From NCBI GenBank assembly GCA_024690865.1, contig JAILON010000007.1, positions 1 through 64,000 on the forward strand: a DNA stretch of 64,000 nt, read 5' to 3'. The position numbers and the translations under genes are program-made. Shown one piece after another: positions 13,866-52,680 of this stretch. Source of the DNA: Treponema sp. Lineage in GTDB: Bacteria; Spirochaetota; Spirochaetia; Treponematales; Treponemataceae. How positions within the stretch are numbered: the stretch's first letter is position 1; each line of letters begins with the position of its first letter. The notes under the pieces are model-generated. The model worked only from the letters and a program-made list of their open reading frames with translations. It had not been told where the DNA came from and did not search any database.

Positions 13866-13949
13866 AATTTCCCTGTAAATGGGGCGGGTTGGGAAAATCC
13901 GTCCGTGCCCACGACGCTACGCACTTGCTTGCGGCGTGTCCGTCACGCT

Positions 13950-14130
13950 CGTGACGCAGTTTTGTCACGCCCGTGACGCAGTTCAGTCACGCCCGTGACG
14001 CAGTTTTGTCACGCCCGTGACGCAGTTTTGTCACGCTCGTGCCCACGACGCTACGCACTTGCTTGCGGCGTGTCCGTCACGTCCGTGCCCACGACGCTAC
14101 GCACCTGCTTGCGTCGTGTCTGTCACGTCC
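13950..14130. repeat. Second 22-bp tandem array with CGTGAC palindrome
   Basis: Five units of period 22 with core GTCACGCCCGTGACGCAG run from about 13950 to 14040. They are followed by a longer duplicated block (GTGCCCACGACGCTACGCAC) seen at about 13909, 14040 and 14086. Same palindrome and period as the array at 3-200. The interval 13866-14147 has no supported gene. Confidence 0.9.
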
Positions 14131-43264: not shown

Positions 43265-43684
43265 TCACAGATACAAATCCTGAACCCCGATAGATTTGTT
43301 TGGATACAGCTCGAGCCCCATACCAAGCTCATCTTCAGGAACAGAAAACAAAGCGACCACTTTTCCGTTCTGCTTGTACAAAACGGACTGCAATGCCACA
43401 TGCCCAAAAAGTGAAGCAGAATCAGAAAGATGCAGATTATATGTCTTGTTCAAATAACCTATCATTCTTGTGATGCCATCATCATCTATCAGATTTTTCT
43501 TCTGTTGAATCATCTGGTAGTTTGATTCCTGAACACTAGAGATGCTTTCACCTGGTAAAGCCTCAACAATAGTTGTAATTGAAAACTTCTGGTTTCCGCA
43601 AGAGACGGAATCCTTCTTCTCCCATTGGAAATCATACGTCAGTTTGCCGAATATTTTATTTTCAATTGTTTCCATAATTATCAT
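43265..43684 (-). CDS. Putative immunity protein for the WHH nuclease
   Basis: 139 residues, small, acidic, soluble, without a known catalytic motif (IFGKLTYDFQWEKKDSVSCGNQKF ... SIGVQDLYL). Its ATG overlaps the nuclease stop codon as ATGA, the arrangement of toxin/immunity pairs. A second in-frame ATG at 43675 is better spaced from GGGAG. The shape recalls DUF6985/DUF2004-style proteins, but that is only a guess. The immunity role is inferred from position. Confidence 0.65.
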   Translation of the reverse strand: MIIMETIENKIFGKLTYDFQWEKKDSVSCGNQKFSITTIVEALPGESISSVQESNYQMIQQKKNLIDDDGITRMIGYLNKTYNLHLSDSASLFGHVALQSVLYKQNGKVVALFSVPEDELGMGLELYPNKSIGVQDLYL

Positions 43685-44412
43685 ACTCCCTGTTTTATAG
43701 TCGATATACCACCACGATGCGGTACATTCAAATGCACGTCGTTAGGCATTTTACTCATAGTTTTGCAATCCCGAGACTCATGCCATGTATAACCATTCTT
43801 CTCCCGCCATTCCCTGACTTCCGAAGGAGAACAGCCCCGCTTATTTGCCATTTCCACATCTGCTTTGGCAAAGTTTTTTGGACGGGAATCAGAATATCCT
43901 TCTATTTCAACCTTTCCCTTGGTGGTTTCGGAGAAATCAGGCTCACCGTCTTTAAAAGGAATTCCTTCTATACCATATTTATCTTTTATTTCCCTCCACG
44001 TCAAGCCATCAGGATTTGATTTTTCAGGTACATAATTGTCATCAGGAATCCATGTAGAATTCCCGCGTTCACCATCCCAGTGCCCGTTGTTCTCGTCTAT
44101 CGGGCAATTACGCATATCGCCCTGAGAATCTTTATCCAGCTTTTTATCAAGGTCATAGGACTTTTTGCTTTCGTCTCCTGTCCGGGTGACCTCGCCCTTC
44201 CCTACTTTCGCGTCTGGATTATAGGGCTTCCCAGAATCTCCGATAGACTTGGAGACTTCAGCTTTCCCAACTTTAGCGTCGGGATTAAAAGGTTTCCCGG
44301 CATCACCTACAGATTTGGAAACCTCTTTCCCTACTTTTGCGTCGGGGTCAAAGGCAGGCTTTACATCACCGGCCTTCTGCCCGACTTCCGAAACCTTTGA
44401 GAACGCTTCCAT
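43681..44412 (-). CDS. WHH-type HNH/endonuclease VII nuclease (toxin or effector)
   Basis: 243 residues. The C-terminal domain carries Trp210-His211-Glu212, then DCKTMSKMPNDVH with His227 and His232-Arg-Gly-Gly: the WHH pattern of polymorphic-toxin DNases of the HNH/Endo VII superfamily. The N-terminus has three imperfect repeats of KP(F/Y)NPDAKVGK (about residues 18-72) and no secretion signal. AAGGAGG precedes the start, which overlaps the HerA stop as TGATG. Expected to cut nucleic acid in the cell when released from its partners. Confidence 0.85.
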   Translation of the reverse strand: MEAFSKVSEVGQKAGDVKPAFDPDAKVGKEVSKSVGDAGKPFNPDAKVGKAEVSKSIGDSGKPYNPDAKVGKGEVTRTGDESKKSYDLDKKLDKDSQGDMRNCPIDENNGHWDGERGNSTWIPDDNYVPEKSNPDGLTWREIKDKYGIEGIPFKDGEPDFSETTKGKVEIEGYSDSRPKNFAKADVEMANKRGCSPSEVREWREKNGYTWHESRDCKTMSKMPNDVHLNVPHRGGISTIKQGV

Positions 44413-47400
44413 CACTTTAAACCTCCTTCCTTGGACCATCGTTCAAGTTGCTCGGTTTTTCCAAGCTCGTTATGCAGGTAGTCCGTTATGATGCACTGGC
44501 GGATGTTTCGCAACAGTTCCTCGTTTTCGGTCTCCCCTACGGCCTCGCGGACAGCCCTATCCACATCCTCTGTCCATTGTATCGTATCGCTTGTAGCCTC
44601 ATACGACGCGACAAAAGCCTCCCTGACAGAGGGGAACAGCTCCGCCATGACAGGCGCAAGTTTAGTGAAACGGGGTGATACAGGAGGATTAGCAAGAAAC
44701 TTCAGAATCTTCACCTGTGTTGAGGCATTCATCTTAATCCGCTTCAAATCAGAAGAAAGTTCTTTGAGCTTAATTTCTTCCTTTACAGAAACACCTTCGC
44801 ACAAAAGACGAGCCACCTCAAGGGAATCAGCCATACTAACAGCGACAGGAGCGGACAAATCCTTTGTAGGCTTCCAATTCCCCTTCGGCGTACAGTGATT
44901 CACCTTGCACAGGACGGCTTCCACCCATTCGTTCTGGTACACAGCAGCGACACCACGAGGAAGCTTAGCAAGCTCTATAATTTGGTCATCATTCAGGTTG
45001 GCTGCCTTGCCCACAAGTTCGCGATCATCTTGGTCAGGAAGCCGCATAATAATTTTTGTATTCGTATTACGGATTACCGCCATATCCAGTAAGGCGGGAG
45101 CCTGGTCAGCTATTACGAATCCCTCTCCGTAAGTCCTCATCTCCGCAATGGAATTCGTGAGCATCTCCACGGACTTACCAAGCAAGTTGCCGGAATCCTG
45201 TGACTGCTCGGTAGCAGTTCTCTTCAAAAGATTGTGAGCCTCTTCCAGAACTGTAACGTGACGGAGAGGTGAATTCATCACGCAGTTTGTCATGCGATAT
45301 TCCTGCAGCTTCATCACGAGTAGTCCCATGATGAGTGACTTTGTTTCCGCAGACCCGATACGGCTCAAATCCACGATAACGTTCCTGTCGAATAAATCAG
45401 GGGACGGAATCTCATGGGCCGTGAAAATCAGACCGTTGATTCCATTTGTGAGCGACTTCAAGCGAGTAATCAGGCTTCCTTTGTAAGCACCTTTATTCTC
45501 TGTATCATACTCGGAACTGTCTATAATTGCACGGATCTTACGGGTGACATCCCCGAAAGTCGGATAAAGAGCATCCCCATATCTTTCCTCATATTCGTTC
45601 ATAGATTCCACAAGATTCCAGCCACAGTCCTCGTAGGATTTTTCCATTGCCTCTTTGAGAACAGCGGGCATGGCAGCATACATAGGCCAGCAGACATTAA
45701 ATATCTCAATGAGACGGTCCAAGTGTTCCAAAATATGGATATTCTTGCTTGCATCCGCATCTCCATGAGGAAAACTGAAGGGATTTATACGGAGCAGATT
45801 CGTAAGTGTCGGATTCGTACCATAAACGGATACACCCACATTTCCACCGAATACATTCTTGTACTCACCCTTTGCTGGTTCCACGACGAGAAACGTAGCG
45901 AACTTACGAATCTCTGAAAGCATCTGATACACGGTGTTGCTCTTTCCGCTACCCGTTGAACCTGTTATGAAGGTATGAGAGGCTAGGCTGTCAGGATTCA
46001 GAACTACAGCAAGCTCCTCCTCCTGGTTCATGTGCCATATTCTGCCAAGCTCCACCGAATAGCTTTTGTCCTCTGAGTTTTCGTCCTCATCATAGGTCGA
46101 GACCGTCCTGCCAAATTCCGCGCATTCAAGCACGGGCAAGCCTGGCACAGAATGGTTGGGAAGCCCTGCGTGTATGGCAAGTTCTGCGCTGGAAATAAGC
46201 GTCCCAAGAGTAATATCCAAACTGTCAATATGAAAATACGGATGGCACATATATTTCAATGAATTGGCTATAAGGCGAGACTTGTCCATCCCCCAGACAG
46301 TGACTCCTCCGTTCTCAAGCGATGAGTTTTTACCCCTTATTATGGAATGATAGACGTTCGCCGCCATCTGAGCATCATGAGGATTCTCAGCGATACAGTA
46401 CATGGCACAGTTCCACATGCCAACGTCAGCACAGTTGTCATACCGTTCCAGCGTCTTGTCAATTCTCGCCATAATCTGCTTCACTGCATGATTCTCAAAC
46501 TTAATCTGTAAGCTCCGGTTCATACCGGTTCCATGAGATTCTCCCTTTGTGGATGTTTCGCTCGAGCCGTAAGATGATCCGACCTGCTCGGCTTTTCCAT
46601 GCGTGTCGGACTGACTCTGACCTTCTGTAAAACTGTGAGTTTTGGAATGATTTACACCTATATTCAGTCCTGAACTAAGGCCACTCATTACAGTTGATGC
46701 TATACTGCCACCTATACCAAAAAGCCCCGCTGATACAGAACCTGTAGTACCAGAGCTAGAAAAACTACCTATATTTATCCCTGCGCTTACGCCGTTCGTC
46801 GTACTGTCGGTCGTAGACGTGGATGTACCGCTCGTATGACTGACGGTCTCCGTAATGCTCTTGTTCACGGTCTCCGTGACACCGTGCGAAATTGAAGATG
46901 AGACGCTTTCTGTCTCGCTCGCCCCAACCGTCATCTGGCTTTCGCTGAATGGAACGAGAGAAGAATACAGGTTCTCCAAAGCACGGCGGCTTTTGCCTAA
47001 ATCTACGAGAGACACAGGGTCAGCGATGAGCAACATGGTGTAACGTTTGCCCTGCATCGTATCAATGAGCTTCTCGATCCCCTGCATGAACTGTCGTTCC
47101 CTGTTTTCTTCCTCACTCCTGTTTCCAGACACATCAGTGACGGAAGCAACGGCGCATGAGGAGGGGAAAGCAGAAAGTATGTCCGCCTGAAGCCTGTCCT
47201 TCCGCACAGGCTCTATTTTGCTGCCGGGGAAATTCCCCTTAAGGCAGTTTTCCAAGACAGAGGCATAATCCCCGGCATTGTGATTTGCCTTTATACCAAA
47301 CTTTACGGAAACCCGATCCTCTTCCCCATGAACCATCATCAAAAGGCTTGCACCCGCGCTACCAACGGCATTATACACGGAGACAAGCTTATCGCGTACG

Positions 47401-47624
47401 TTTTCGTTTTTGTTCAGGACAACTTGTGTCACGTCAAAGAAGCGTACGCTGTCATTAAGCTCATTTATGAACTCCGGATTCTTGGCGACATCTTTCATCT
47501 GCCTGACTATCGGAACATCCTTTGAATTCAGCATGCTAAGATAGGACTTCTCCAGAATCATGTCGGCTGTCGCAACAGCTTTCTCCAAGTCGTCCTTATT
47601 GCGGACATCTATTTCCTGTGCCAT
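44412..47624 (-). CDS. HerA/DUF87-type ATPase
   Basis: 1070 residues. N-terminal alpha/beta domain (1-230), a striking Ser/Thr/Gly-rich low-complexity segment (about 236-368, with GLFGIGGSIASTVMSGLSSGL in the middle), then a HerA-FtsK ATPase: Walker A GSTGSGKS at 555-562, VVEPAKGEYKN after it, and Walker B VTVLEEAH at about 790-797. Such ATPases form hexamers that pump DNA or drive defence nucleases. Start at 47624 with GGAGG five bases upstream; an in-frame TTG exists at 47642. Sits between the glycine-zipper gene and the nuclease. Confidence 0.93.
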   Translation of the reverse strand: MAQEIDVRNKDDLEKAVATADMILEKSYLSMLNSKDVPIVRQMKDVAKNPEFINELNDSVRFFDVTQVVLNKNENVRDKLVSVYNAVGSAGASLLMMVHGEEDRVSVKFGIKANHNAGDYASVLENCLKGNFPGSKIEPVRKDRLQADILSAFPSSCAVASVTDVSGNRSEEENRERQFMQGIEKLIDTMQGKRYTMLLIADPVSLVDLGKSRRALENLYSSLVPFSESQMTVGASETESVSSSISHGVTETVNKSITETVSHTSGTSTSTTDSTTNGVSAGINIGSFSSSGTTGSVSAGLFGIGGSIASTVMSGLSSGLNIGVNHSKTHSFTEGQSQSDTHGKAEQVGSSYGSSETSTKGESHGTGMNRSLQIKFENHAVKQIMARIDKTLERYDNCADVGMWNCAMYCIAENPHDAQMAANVYHSIIRGKNSSLENGGVTVWGMDKSRLIANSLKYMCHPYFHIDSLDITLGTLISSAELAIHAGLPNHSVPGLPVLECAEFGRTVSTYDEDENSEDKSYSVELGRIWHMNQEEELAVVLNPDSLASHTFITGSTGSGKSNTVYQMLSEIRKFATFLVVEPAKGEYKNVFGGNVGVSVYGTNPTLTNLLRINPFSFPHGDADASKNIHILEHLDRLIEIFNVCWPMYAAMPAVLKEAMEKSYEDCGWNLVESMNEYEERYGDALYPTFGDVTRKIRAIIDSSEYDTENKGAYKGSLITRLKSLTNGINGLIFTAHEIPSPDLFDRNVIVDLSRIGSAETKSLIMGLLVMKLQEYRMTNCVMNSPLRHVTVLEEAHNLLKRTATEQSQDSGNLLGKSVEMLTNSIAEMRTYGEGFVIADQAPALLDMAVIRNTNTKIIMRLPDQDDRELVGKAANLNDDQIIELAKLPRGVAAVYQNEWVEAVLCKVNHCTPKGNWKPTKDLSAPVAVSMADSLEVARLLCEGVSVKEEIKLKELSSDLKRIKMNASTQVKILKFLANPPVSPRFTKLAPVMAELFPSVREAFVASYEATSDTIQWTEDVDRAVREAVGETENEELLRNIRQCIITDYLHNELGKTEQLERWSKEGGLK

Positions 47625-47736
47625 AATTCCTCCACACAGCAACTATAATCACGATTTCAATTGTGAAAGCTCCTGCTGTTTTTCATACTCAGCCTGAGCA
47701 TCCTTATTCAAATCTTCCCCAGCCCGTACAACGCAC

Positions 47737-50658: not shown

Positions 50659-51873
50659 TTAAAACATATTCTCTATATACCGTTCCACGGAAGTAATCCC
50701 CGTGGAATCTATATTCTTATATTGTTCCTGTATCGAGCTTAACTTTCTTTGCTCCTTTGGTGTCAGTCCCAAAGACCTGCCACTTGATGCCATTTTTAAA
50801 AGTCGGGCAGCCTGAGAGGAAACAGGAAAAATGGCAGGAGAAGTAAAACCAATATCTGAAAGATAGGAATTGTAACGGCTCAGGATGTCCGTGACATTCT
50901 CCTTGTCCTCATCCAGCTCGTCAGCCCTGTTCATGATGAACATTACCGGAATACCAAACGGCTTCACAATATTTTTCAGCAGCTCCGACAGCAGGATCTT
51001 TTCATCCATAGTGCAAAGCTGAGTTGCGTTGGCGACGAAAACCAGCGCATCCATCGTGTTTTCTTTCAAAAAACGCATGGTCATATCGTGATGGCTCTTG
51101 TCACCGGAGTTGTTCGTTCCTGGTGTATCATGTACGGCAACAATCATTCCTTTATTTCTTATTCCGTCCAAGTCACCTTGCAGGAAAATCCGCTCAACAC
51201 AGCTGGAATCATTCCATTCGTTCAATTTGAAAAGCTGTATATCGGAACATTTGTCATCACATGTACCGTCCCGCTTTTGGACAAAGCCTATCATCTTTTC
51301 CGCCCCGTCCTTGTCATAGACACTCGTAATCTTTGCTGTCGTCGCTTCGTTGCGGGCAGGGAGGACATCACGCCCCAGAAGTGCGTTGACAAAGGTGCTT
51401 TTTCCCGCGCTCATAGTAGCGCAGACTGCAATGTGCTTTATGGGAAGCTGTGCATAGCGGAGTTCTGCATCATTGAACGACATGAATTCCGCGTAGCTTC
51501 TGGCAGCAAACTTATTTGCAGGGAGTTTCTTTTGCACTGCAAGACGGAAAGCCCTGAACCTCCGTTCGCTGTACCCGAATGCTGATGCGAGCGTCACCTC
51601 ATCAGGCAAAGTCTTTCCATGCAGCTCACAGAAAAAAACAAATTCCTTGTACAAGAGCCACTGAAAACACTTGCGTTTGAGCAATTTACACAATGCAGGA
51701 GTTTTATCATATTCTGATGCAACGAGAGCGTCGAATGCAGTATGAAAGGCATTCGTATACCGTTCGTTCTGTCTTGGCCTGTCTTTCCGCTCATGGATAA
51801 TCTGAGTACGGAAGAAGACATCTGCATTTATGAGACGAAATTGCAACTGTTCTCCGTTGCCATTTTCATTCAT
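50659..51873 (-). CDS. Dynamin-like GTPase, short form
   Basis: 404 residues, first gene of the operon. N-terminal helical domain (1-140), GTPase with P-loop ATMSAGKS (152-159), EATTA, DTPG (249-252) and NRAD (315-318), then only about 80 residues: no room for a stalk. Likely a partner for the long dynamin, 15 bp downstream, as in other bacterial two-dynamin systems. Start at 51873 (MNENGNGEQ) with GGAGA upstream. Confidence 0.9.
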   Translation of the reverse strand: MNENGNGEQLQFRLINADVFFRTQIIHERKDRPRQNERYTNAFHTAFDALVASEYDKTPALCKLLKRKCFQWLLYKEFVFFCELHGKTLPDEVTLASAFGYSERRFRAFRLAVQKKLPANKFAARSYAEFMSFNDAELRYAQLPIKHIAVCATMSAGKSTFVNALLGRDVLPARNEATTAKITSVYDKDGAEKMIGFVQKRDGTCDDKCSDIQLFKLNEWNDSSCVERIFLQGDLDGIRNKGMIVAVHDTPGTNNSGDKSHHDMTMRFLKENTMDALVFVANATQLCTMDEKILLSELLKNIVKPFGIPVMFIMNRADELDEDKENVTDILSRYNSYLSDIGFTSPAIFPVSSQAARLLKMASSGRSLGLTPKEQRKLSSIQEQYKNIDSTGITSVERYIENMF

Positions 51874-52346
51874 TTTTTTCTCCGTTTATGGTTTGTATTT
51901 CCATTCTCCCCTTGACAAATACTGGCAGGAGACAAAACTTTTTCACACTTTTCCTTCCCCATACATCTCCACGACCTTCTATGCCTCGGTACATACTTCC
52001 TCGGCAAGGTCAGCGGGATGCTCTTGATGAAGGAATTCGGCTCGCCGTAGTAATAGCCCGTGCCGTCGCTTTCGACCGGGGCGTTGAGCATGTTGCGCAT
52101 GAAGTCTATGTCGCGCTGGATGGTCCGGGGGCTGTAGCTTCCGTCCTCGATGCGGGAGGTGATTTCGGCTGCGCTCAGGTGCCGCCCGTCCTTCAGGAGG
52201 CAGTCGATTTCGAGGATATGTCGGGAATGAAGCTTGGTCTGGCGCCCCAGTTTTCTTACGAGGTCGGATACAGGTTCGTCAGAGTTGAGTTGAGTTGAGT
52301 TGAGTTGAGTTGAGTTGAGTTGAGTTGAGTTGCTTAATAGTAACAT
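51870..52346 (-). pseudogene. Truncated WYL-type HTH regulator with repeat switch
   Basis: 158 codons. After the start at 52346 come LLLS and a run of NSTQL units encoded by ten AACTC repeats. Then a good HTH follows (HSRHILEIDCLLKDGRHLSAAEITSRI ... RTIQRDIDFMRNMLNAPVES) up to SFIKSIPLT. There WYL-family proteins continue into a ligand domain; here the homology stops and the frame runs through unrelated sequence to the GTPase start. Either a remnant cut by island insertion or a short DNA-binding regulator of the operon. With ten repeats the frame is open. Confidence 0.65.
52282..52331. repeat. Pentanucleotide repeat, ten copies of GAGTT
   Basis: Perfect 50-bp run of GAGTT (AACTC on the coding minus strand), five codons after the likely start of the HTH gene. 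Because five is not a multiple of three, each gain or loss of one unit shifts the frame: a typical contingency-locus design. Confidence 0.97.
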
Positions 52347-52445
52347 CGATTTCACACCTGTTCCCTTTCTTGACCAGAATGGGCAACCACCCAACGTCTA
52401 CGGCTACTATAGCACAAAGGCAAAGCCATTGCAAGGGTCTGGAAC

Positions 52446-52545
52446 AGCGGCTGTTACGCGCGAGTCGAACGGCTGTTACGCGCAAGCCGAACAGCCGTTA
52501 CGCGCAAGCCGAACAGCCGTTATGCGCAAGCCGAAAAGCCGTGCA
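52446..52545. repeat. 22-bp tandem array, four to five copies
   Basis: Degenerate units AGCCGTTACGCGCAAGCCGAAC. A related single unit occurs near 42205. Same 22-bp period as the arrays at 3-200 and 13950-14040, but different sequence. Confidence 0.85.
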
Positions 52546-52600: not shown

Positions 52601-52606
52601 TTGGAG

Positions 52607-52680
<74 letters not shown>

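Follow-up and report, generated by a model that had tools for sequence, protein, structure and literature searches.

An AACTC-repeat switch in a broken regulator gene ahead of a Treponema dynamin operon, and a probable family of DriD-like WYL relatives

The AACTC array and its broken gene

The window, a 64,000-nt stretch of a Treponema sp. assembly (contig C18; assembly of 3.85 Mb in 194 contigs, 91% complete), carries on its minus strand a repeat-bearing reading frame that runs into genes for two dynamin-like GTPases, with a gene for a HerA-type ATPase further on. The features are as follows.

52406..52434, minus strand: array-gene promoter, TTGCAA-N17-TATAGT, kept in both paralogues (leaders 87-100% identical)
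52282..52331, minus strand: perfect (AACTC)10 array close to the start codon (tandem-repeat and ORF analysis)
51870..52346, minus strand: array ORF of 158 aa, remnant of a WYL regulator gene (ORF, Pfam and homologue comparison)
51940..52003, minus strand: 3' end of the WYL gene, ~20 codons, out of frame (local alignment to the L072 orthologue)
51895..51926, minus strand: eroded operator/promoter unit (position and alignment to intact loci)
51870..51873, minus strand: ATGA overlap of the array-ORF stop and the first dynamin start, with possible translational coupling
50659..51873, minus strand: dynamin-like GTPase 1 (404 aa), sharing 52-55% identity with the first gene behind the intact regulator of L078 and L072
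48343..50643, minus strand: dynamin-like GTPase 2 (766 aa), sharing 36-41% identity with the second gene of those two loci
44412..47642, minus strand: HerA/DUF87-type ATPase of 1076 aa, sharing 59% identity with the second gene after the L097 operator

The array was called by TRF as 10.2 copies of GAGTT at 100% match (52282-52332) and is the only one in the window with a unit of at most 6 nt and at least five copies. The ORF starts at ATG 52346, ends at a TGA (51870-51872) and opens with MLLLS(NSTQL)n, the repeat peptide being followed by an HTH region (approximately residues 31-115) and a non-homologous tail of 43 aa. When copy number was varied from 6 to 14, the frame was open at 7, 10 and 13 and otherwise met a stop after 15-36 codons; 20 codons are read at nine copies, 158 at ten and 31 at eleven. 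The first-pass annotation had described ten perfect copies just after the start codon of a gene that is in frame at ten, and both statements hold. Runs of (AACTC)4 or longer occur at three places in the assembly, each just after the start codon of a member of the same gene family, so the array is not a chance occurrence. It is a genuine genetic on/off switch, lying in a broken regulator gene.

That annotation had also called the product a WYL-type HTH protein, of which the HTH half stands. Pfam returned HTH_11 alone, under its cut-off, the PADLOC WYL model covers only the HTH part (residues 44-100), and the WYL and WCX domains of an HTH-WYL-WCX regulator are absent. The closest homologue lies in the same genome, on contig C136, and is 83% identical up to 'KSIPLT', beyond which it carries on through WYL and WCX domains. 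Between these flanks the window gene lacks 681 nt, and with a 4-nt GACC overlap the deletion comes to about 685 nt, a frameshift. The surviving 3' end reads LAEEVCTEA*KVVEMYGEGK in the window against LVEEVRAEAAQVAAMYGEGK in L072, an alignment scoring 42 where the best of 200 shuffles scored 28. Within the HTH, an arginine kept in 20 of 20 relatives has become histidine, and the eight polarised codon changes assigned to the window branch comprise five non-synonymous and three synonymous ones. As predicted from the ten-copy sequence, the product is an HTH domain with a foreign 43-aa tail, and the gene is probably a decayed member of a phase-variable, DriD-like WYL regulator family.

Other features lie close by. 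Immediately ahead of the array gene, at 52453-52542, is a 22-bp G+C-rich minisatellite (GTTACGCGCAAGCCGAACAGCC x4). The paralogues on contigs C136 and C4 also have related repeats upstream of their arrays, and further 22-bp arrays occur in the window at 2-197 and 13942-14041. A tRNA-Ala(GGC) gene with a terminator is found directly upstream of the array gene (52606-52680). An origin by tRNA insertion was considered and dropped, because no tRNA lies near the paralogues or orthologues. Downstream of the HerA gene is a gene for a WHH/colicin-DNase-type nuclease (43681-44439), which holds a 66-bp tandem repeat of 2.3 copies (44198-44346).

Tract-bearing relatives

The three AACTC arrays of the genome share the same leader and differ in length, with nine copies on C136, ten in the window and twelve on C4. 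The C136 and C4 copies are out of frame, their ATG meeting a stop just past the array; C136 would be open at 7, 10 or 13 copies and C4 at 10, 13 or 16. Apart from its frame, the C136 gene is full length, with HTH_11 (just under cut-off), WYL (7.8e-18) and WCX (2e-14) all recognised by Pfam, and its orthologues likewise hold all three domains. The contig ends C4:1-43 and C37:1-43 overlap by 43 bp, and these two contigs probably hold one phase-variable regulator gene that was split by the assembler.

In other genomes the same point of the gene can carry a different tract. The L072 orthologue (genome G212) has at least 11 AACTC copies, at a contig edge, while four orthologues of 67-69% identity (G050, G075, G035 and L081, the last taken as G167 from its sites) read ATGAC followed by G9 (three genes) or G11 (one) at the equivalent position. 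These poly-G genes need 7, 10 or 13 Gs to be in frame, and all four are out of frame. More distant orthologues, including those of T. saccharophilum DSM 2985 and T. bryantii, are free of tracts. The tree puts the poly-G and AACTC genes into two distinct groups, each supported, and tract-free genes lie between these, so the two kinds of tract arose independently, at least twice. Their convergence on one site of the gene is the strongest sign that frame switching is selected. At the level of the family, then, the switching proposed by the earlier annotation is supported, by paralogues out of frame at 9 and 12 copies and by poly-G at the same point.

Like an SSR contingency locus, the gene has a frame-shifting tandem repeat in its coding start region, and copy number differs among close copies and genomes; from these differences between paralogues and genomes we infer that the tracts slip within populations. 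All six intact tracts are OFF, but no claim is made from this, because random phase would give it with a probability of about 0.09 and three of the tracts may share ancestry. The related loci are nearly all from Treponema or other spirochaetes. No (AACTC)5 was found in 58 relatives, and no homologue of the leader in 199 other genomes of the genus. AACTC arrays are present in viral contigs, where a search for relatives of the regulator gave none. A close paralogue of the AACTC genes in L097 (1887-3029) has no array; it precedes an operator, a gene for a leucine-rich-repeat-like protein and HerA.

Operators, operons and the window copy

Behind the intact regulators lies a conserved unit, YGACA-N5-TGTCR-N12-TAnnnT, with no -35 box and with CCAYGACA-N5-TGTCRTGG as the full palindrome. 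Among 47 distinct palindromes in the fetched loci, 45 have TAnnnT exactly 13 nt past TGTC, all other offsets being found seven times at most. The palindrome covers the -35 position, where the best -35 match is 1-3 of 6 bases, fewer than in shuffled sequence. Of the 22 genomes that hold the close regulator clade, 20 have the strict unit, against 22 of 178 others, a test that is partly circular, since the pattern was drawn largely from sites adjacent to WYL regulator genes. On contigs other than that of the regulator, a hand count gave approximately 15 sites in the 22 genomes against 23 in the 178, and 11 in 200 for a reversed control pattern. The source genome has four exact operators, two of them behind the C136 and C37 regulators and the others at C37:12799 and C59:3325. 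The operator is presumably bound by the family regulator.

The genes behind intact operators vary. The C37 operator is followed by a Sel1-repeat protein and three dynamins, and the C136 operator by a glycine-zipper protein, TerB and an AAA+ ATPase. The intact order of regulator, operator, dynamin 1 and dynamin 2 is kept in L072 and T. saccharophilum (L078). Other operator sites precede small membrane-type proteins, and those tested had no Pfam match. Of these, proteins of 66-95 aa (for example MIKRFIGTCVAATVLAVTGKLVSDYAE...) recur right after secondary operators across many Treponema species, as does a second family of 71-139 aa, whose tested members were likewise without a Pfam match. Instances of such small proteins are L104:3332-4000, L105:2940-3180, L082, L083, L084, L089 and L092. 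At L081:14350-14720 a short protein with a partial match to FHIPEP (flagellar export FlhA) stands directly behind an operator. Because most of the regulon proteins tested had no Pfam match, a defence role is unproven; a role of the operons in defence or membrane stress is plausible. The window island gave LeoABC-like and HerA matches, and protection of B. subtilis populations from phage by a bacterial dynamin is reported (PMC8844932).

We consider it fairly likely that Treponema holds a small family of phase-variable, DriD-like WYL regulators, of which the window copy is a decayed member. In the proposed mechanism, a slipping tract after the start codon (AACTC in one lineage, poly-G in another) would set the frame of an HTH-WYL-WCX protein. 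The in-frame dimer would bind the palindrome over the -35 position of -10-only promoters and would most likely activate a few operons, namely dynamin pairs or triplets, TerB/AAA+ genes and small membrane proteins. With the tract in frame, the regulator would be made and the operons would be available for induction; out of frame, the operons would be silent. In the window, the deletion and the eroded cognate promoter would leave an in-frame tract that no longer controls a working regulator. More tentatively, the repeats in a DriD-like activator may switch a dynamin/membrane, possibly anti-phage, regulon on in a few cells, an arrangement that may have evolved at least twice. That reading, held with the same reserve, would make this a trans-acting phase-variable regulon run by an activator rather than a DNA methyltransferase. 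A limited search of the open-licence literature found no phase-variable WYL regulator.

Activation was weighed against repression using sequence, fold and operator position. By sequence, the regulator matched the solved structures of PafBC (1.8e-16), DriD (approximately 1.7e-6) and CapW (0.027). A model of modest confidence (pTM 0.51) matched the DriD crystal structures with Z scores of 14.8-16.6 (C-domain rmsd 6-7 over 190 residues; whole-chain rmsd 11 with 253-285 residues aligned), against 12.2 for PafB and at most 11.8 for CapW; BrxR, at 12.2, also falls below DriD, although fold alone has no power to settle function. For intact family members activation is the most likely mode, since the Treponema site has the core and placement of DriD sites and DriD leads by fold.

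The contrary view is unlikely but has some points in its favour. The whole family would be repressors relieved by a ligand, of the CapW/BrxR kind, so that an OFF tract would mean constitutive operon expression. WYL proteins beside defence genes are often repressors, and the Acinetobacter BrxR, a proposed repressor, has a site over its predicted -35 with a 5-nt gap (PMC9122589). Against this, CapW sites overlap the -10 (PMC9122588) and that of E. fergusonii BrxR is downstream of it (PMC9122601); a repressor would leave the -35-less promoters unexplained, and the closest fold is that of DriD. The analogy with CapW and BrxR drawn by the first-pass annotation is thus weakened by sites at the -35 position, fixed -10 spacing, the missing -35 box and the fold.

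For the window copy itself, regulation in trans is hard to sustain. Its operator now reads GCCAGTATTTGTC-N13-AAATAC (51926-51895), that is, GCCA-GTATT-TGTC, 13 nt and AAATAC where intact loci have GACA-N5-TGTC-N13-TAnnnT. This unit was identified by position and alignment alone, and a scan of the window for the operator pattern with up to three mismatches gave one match, which is chance level. The protein is unlikely to be a trans regulator, because it has lost its WYL and WCX domains and an HTH residue that is otherwise invariant, and its target promoter is gone; the proposal that it controls the dynamin operon is not supported for this copy. What survives of the proposed slip switch is an in-frame contingency tract in a WYL family that fronts dynamin operons.

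A residual effect on the dynamin operon could, speculatively, be exerted in cis through coupling or polarity. An influence of repeat number is possible because the operon's own promoter is eroded, the array promoter is the only one found upstream and the frames overlap at ATGA. We regard as rather improbable the full version, in which the decayed ORF now serves as a phase-variable upstream ORF. At ten copies ribosomes would reach the overlap (51870-51873) and re-initiate; at other copy numbers they would stop after 20-31 codons, so that hundreds of nucleotides would go untranslated and coupling would be lost, possibly with polarity. The frame states (20, 158 and 31 codons at 9, 10 and 11 copies) fit this, and between the one minus-strand promoter found (52434-52406) and the dynamin start there is neither a second promoter nor a terminator. 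However, the dynamin gene has its own Shine-Dalgarno sequence, GGAG-AAAAAA-ATG, so coupling may not matter, and the overlap may be fortuitous because the tail frame is not ancestral.

It is still less probable that the tracts are simply left over from slippage, neutral and without a switching role under selection. The window tract does persist in a dead gene and the L097 paralogue does without an array, but two independent tract types sit at the same codon position of one gene clade, and AACTC arrays occur nowhere else in the genome. Least probable is that the ten-copy HTH protein is a working, slippage-switched repressor of the adjacent dynamin operon: the array is in frame and adjoins the operon, and defence operons repressed by WYL proteins are known (by CapW, PMC9122588; by BrxR, PMC9122601), but WYL and WCX are gone, the conserved arginine is histidine, codon changes are mostly non-synonymous (5/8), operator and -10 are eroded, and the family sites look like activator promoters.

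The family model bears on how costly defence or membrane-remodelling systems stay off yet available to a population. Should it be true, several such operons would be set together by one tract in the gene of their activator, a form of bet-hedging for a defence-like regulon. The unit YGACA-N5-TGTCR-N12-TAnnnT offers a precise operator for finding regulon members, and T. saccharophilum DSM 2985 is a named reference species with an intact, non-slipping version. Caution is needed in that the copy noticed first is the broken one.

Comparison with known systems

A DriD-like activator is defined by activating transcription when single-stranded DNA binds its WYL domain. DriD of Caulobacter crescentus recognises ATACGAC(N7)GTCGTAT, a site that overlaps a poor -35 and keeps its spacing to the -10 constant (PMC12340889). 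The Treponema family shares with it the HTH-WYL-WCX order, a (C/T)GAC-N7-GTC(A/G) core over poor -35 boxes at a fixed -10 distance and, among all solved WYL proteins, the nearest fold. In contrast, identity is only approximately 21-23%, the targets of DriD are DNA-damage genes where those in Treponema are dynamin, AAA+/TerB and small-membrane-protein operons, and the coding SSR tracts of the Treponema genes have no counterpart described in PMC12340889.

The mycobacterial activators PafBC and SiwR act at the -26 promoter region (PMC10693628), a likeness in placement, and work by sigma adaptation at the place where the -35 is normally contacted by sigma domain 4. PafBC is also the best sequence match among solved structures. 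It differs in being a heterodimer on a non-palindromic motif, whereas the Treponema site is palindromic, which suggests a homodimer.

The defence-island repressors CapW and BrxR share the WYL fold, palindromic sites and a gene beside candidate defence operons. Their fold match to the Treponema model is weaker, and the available portions of their reports describe no SSR switch. Where CapW covers the -10 and the E. fergusonii BrxR binds downstream of it, the Treponema operator lies over the -35, with 13 nt from it to the -10 at 45 of 47 sites.

In the SSR contingency loci of Neisseria, Haemophilus and Campylobacter, and in the poly-G of T. pallidum tpr genes, a tract after the start likewise toggles the frame. 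Known loci of this kind mostly encode surface proteins or DNA methyltransferases; in Treponema, the gene that is switched is a WYL transcription regulator.
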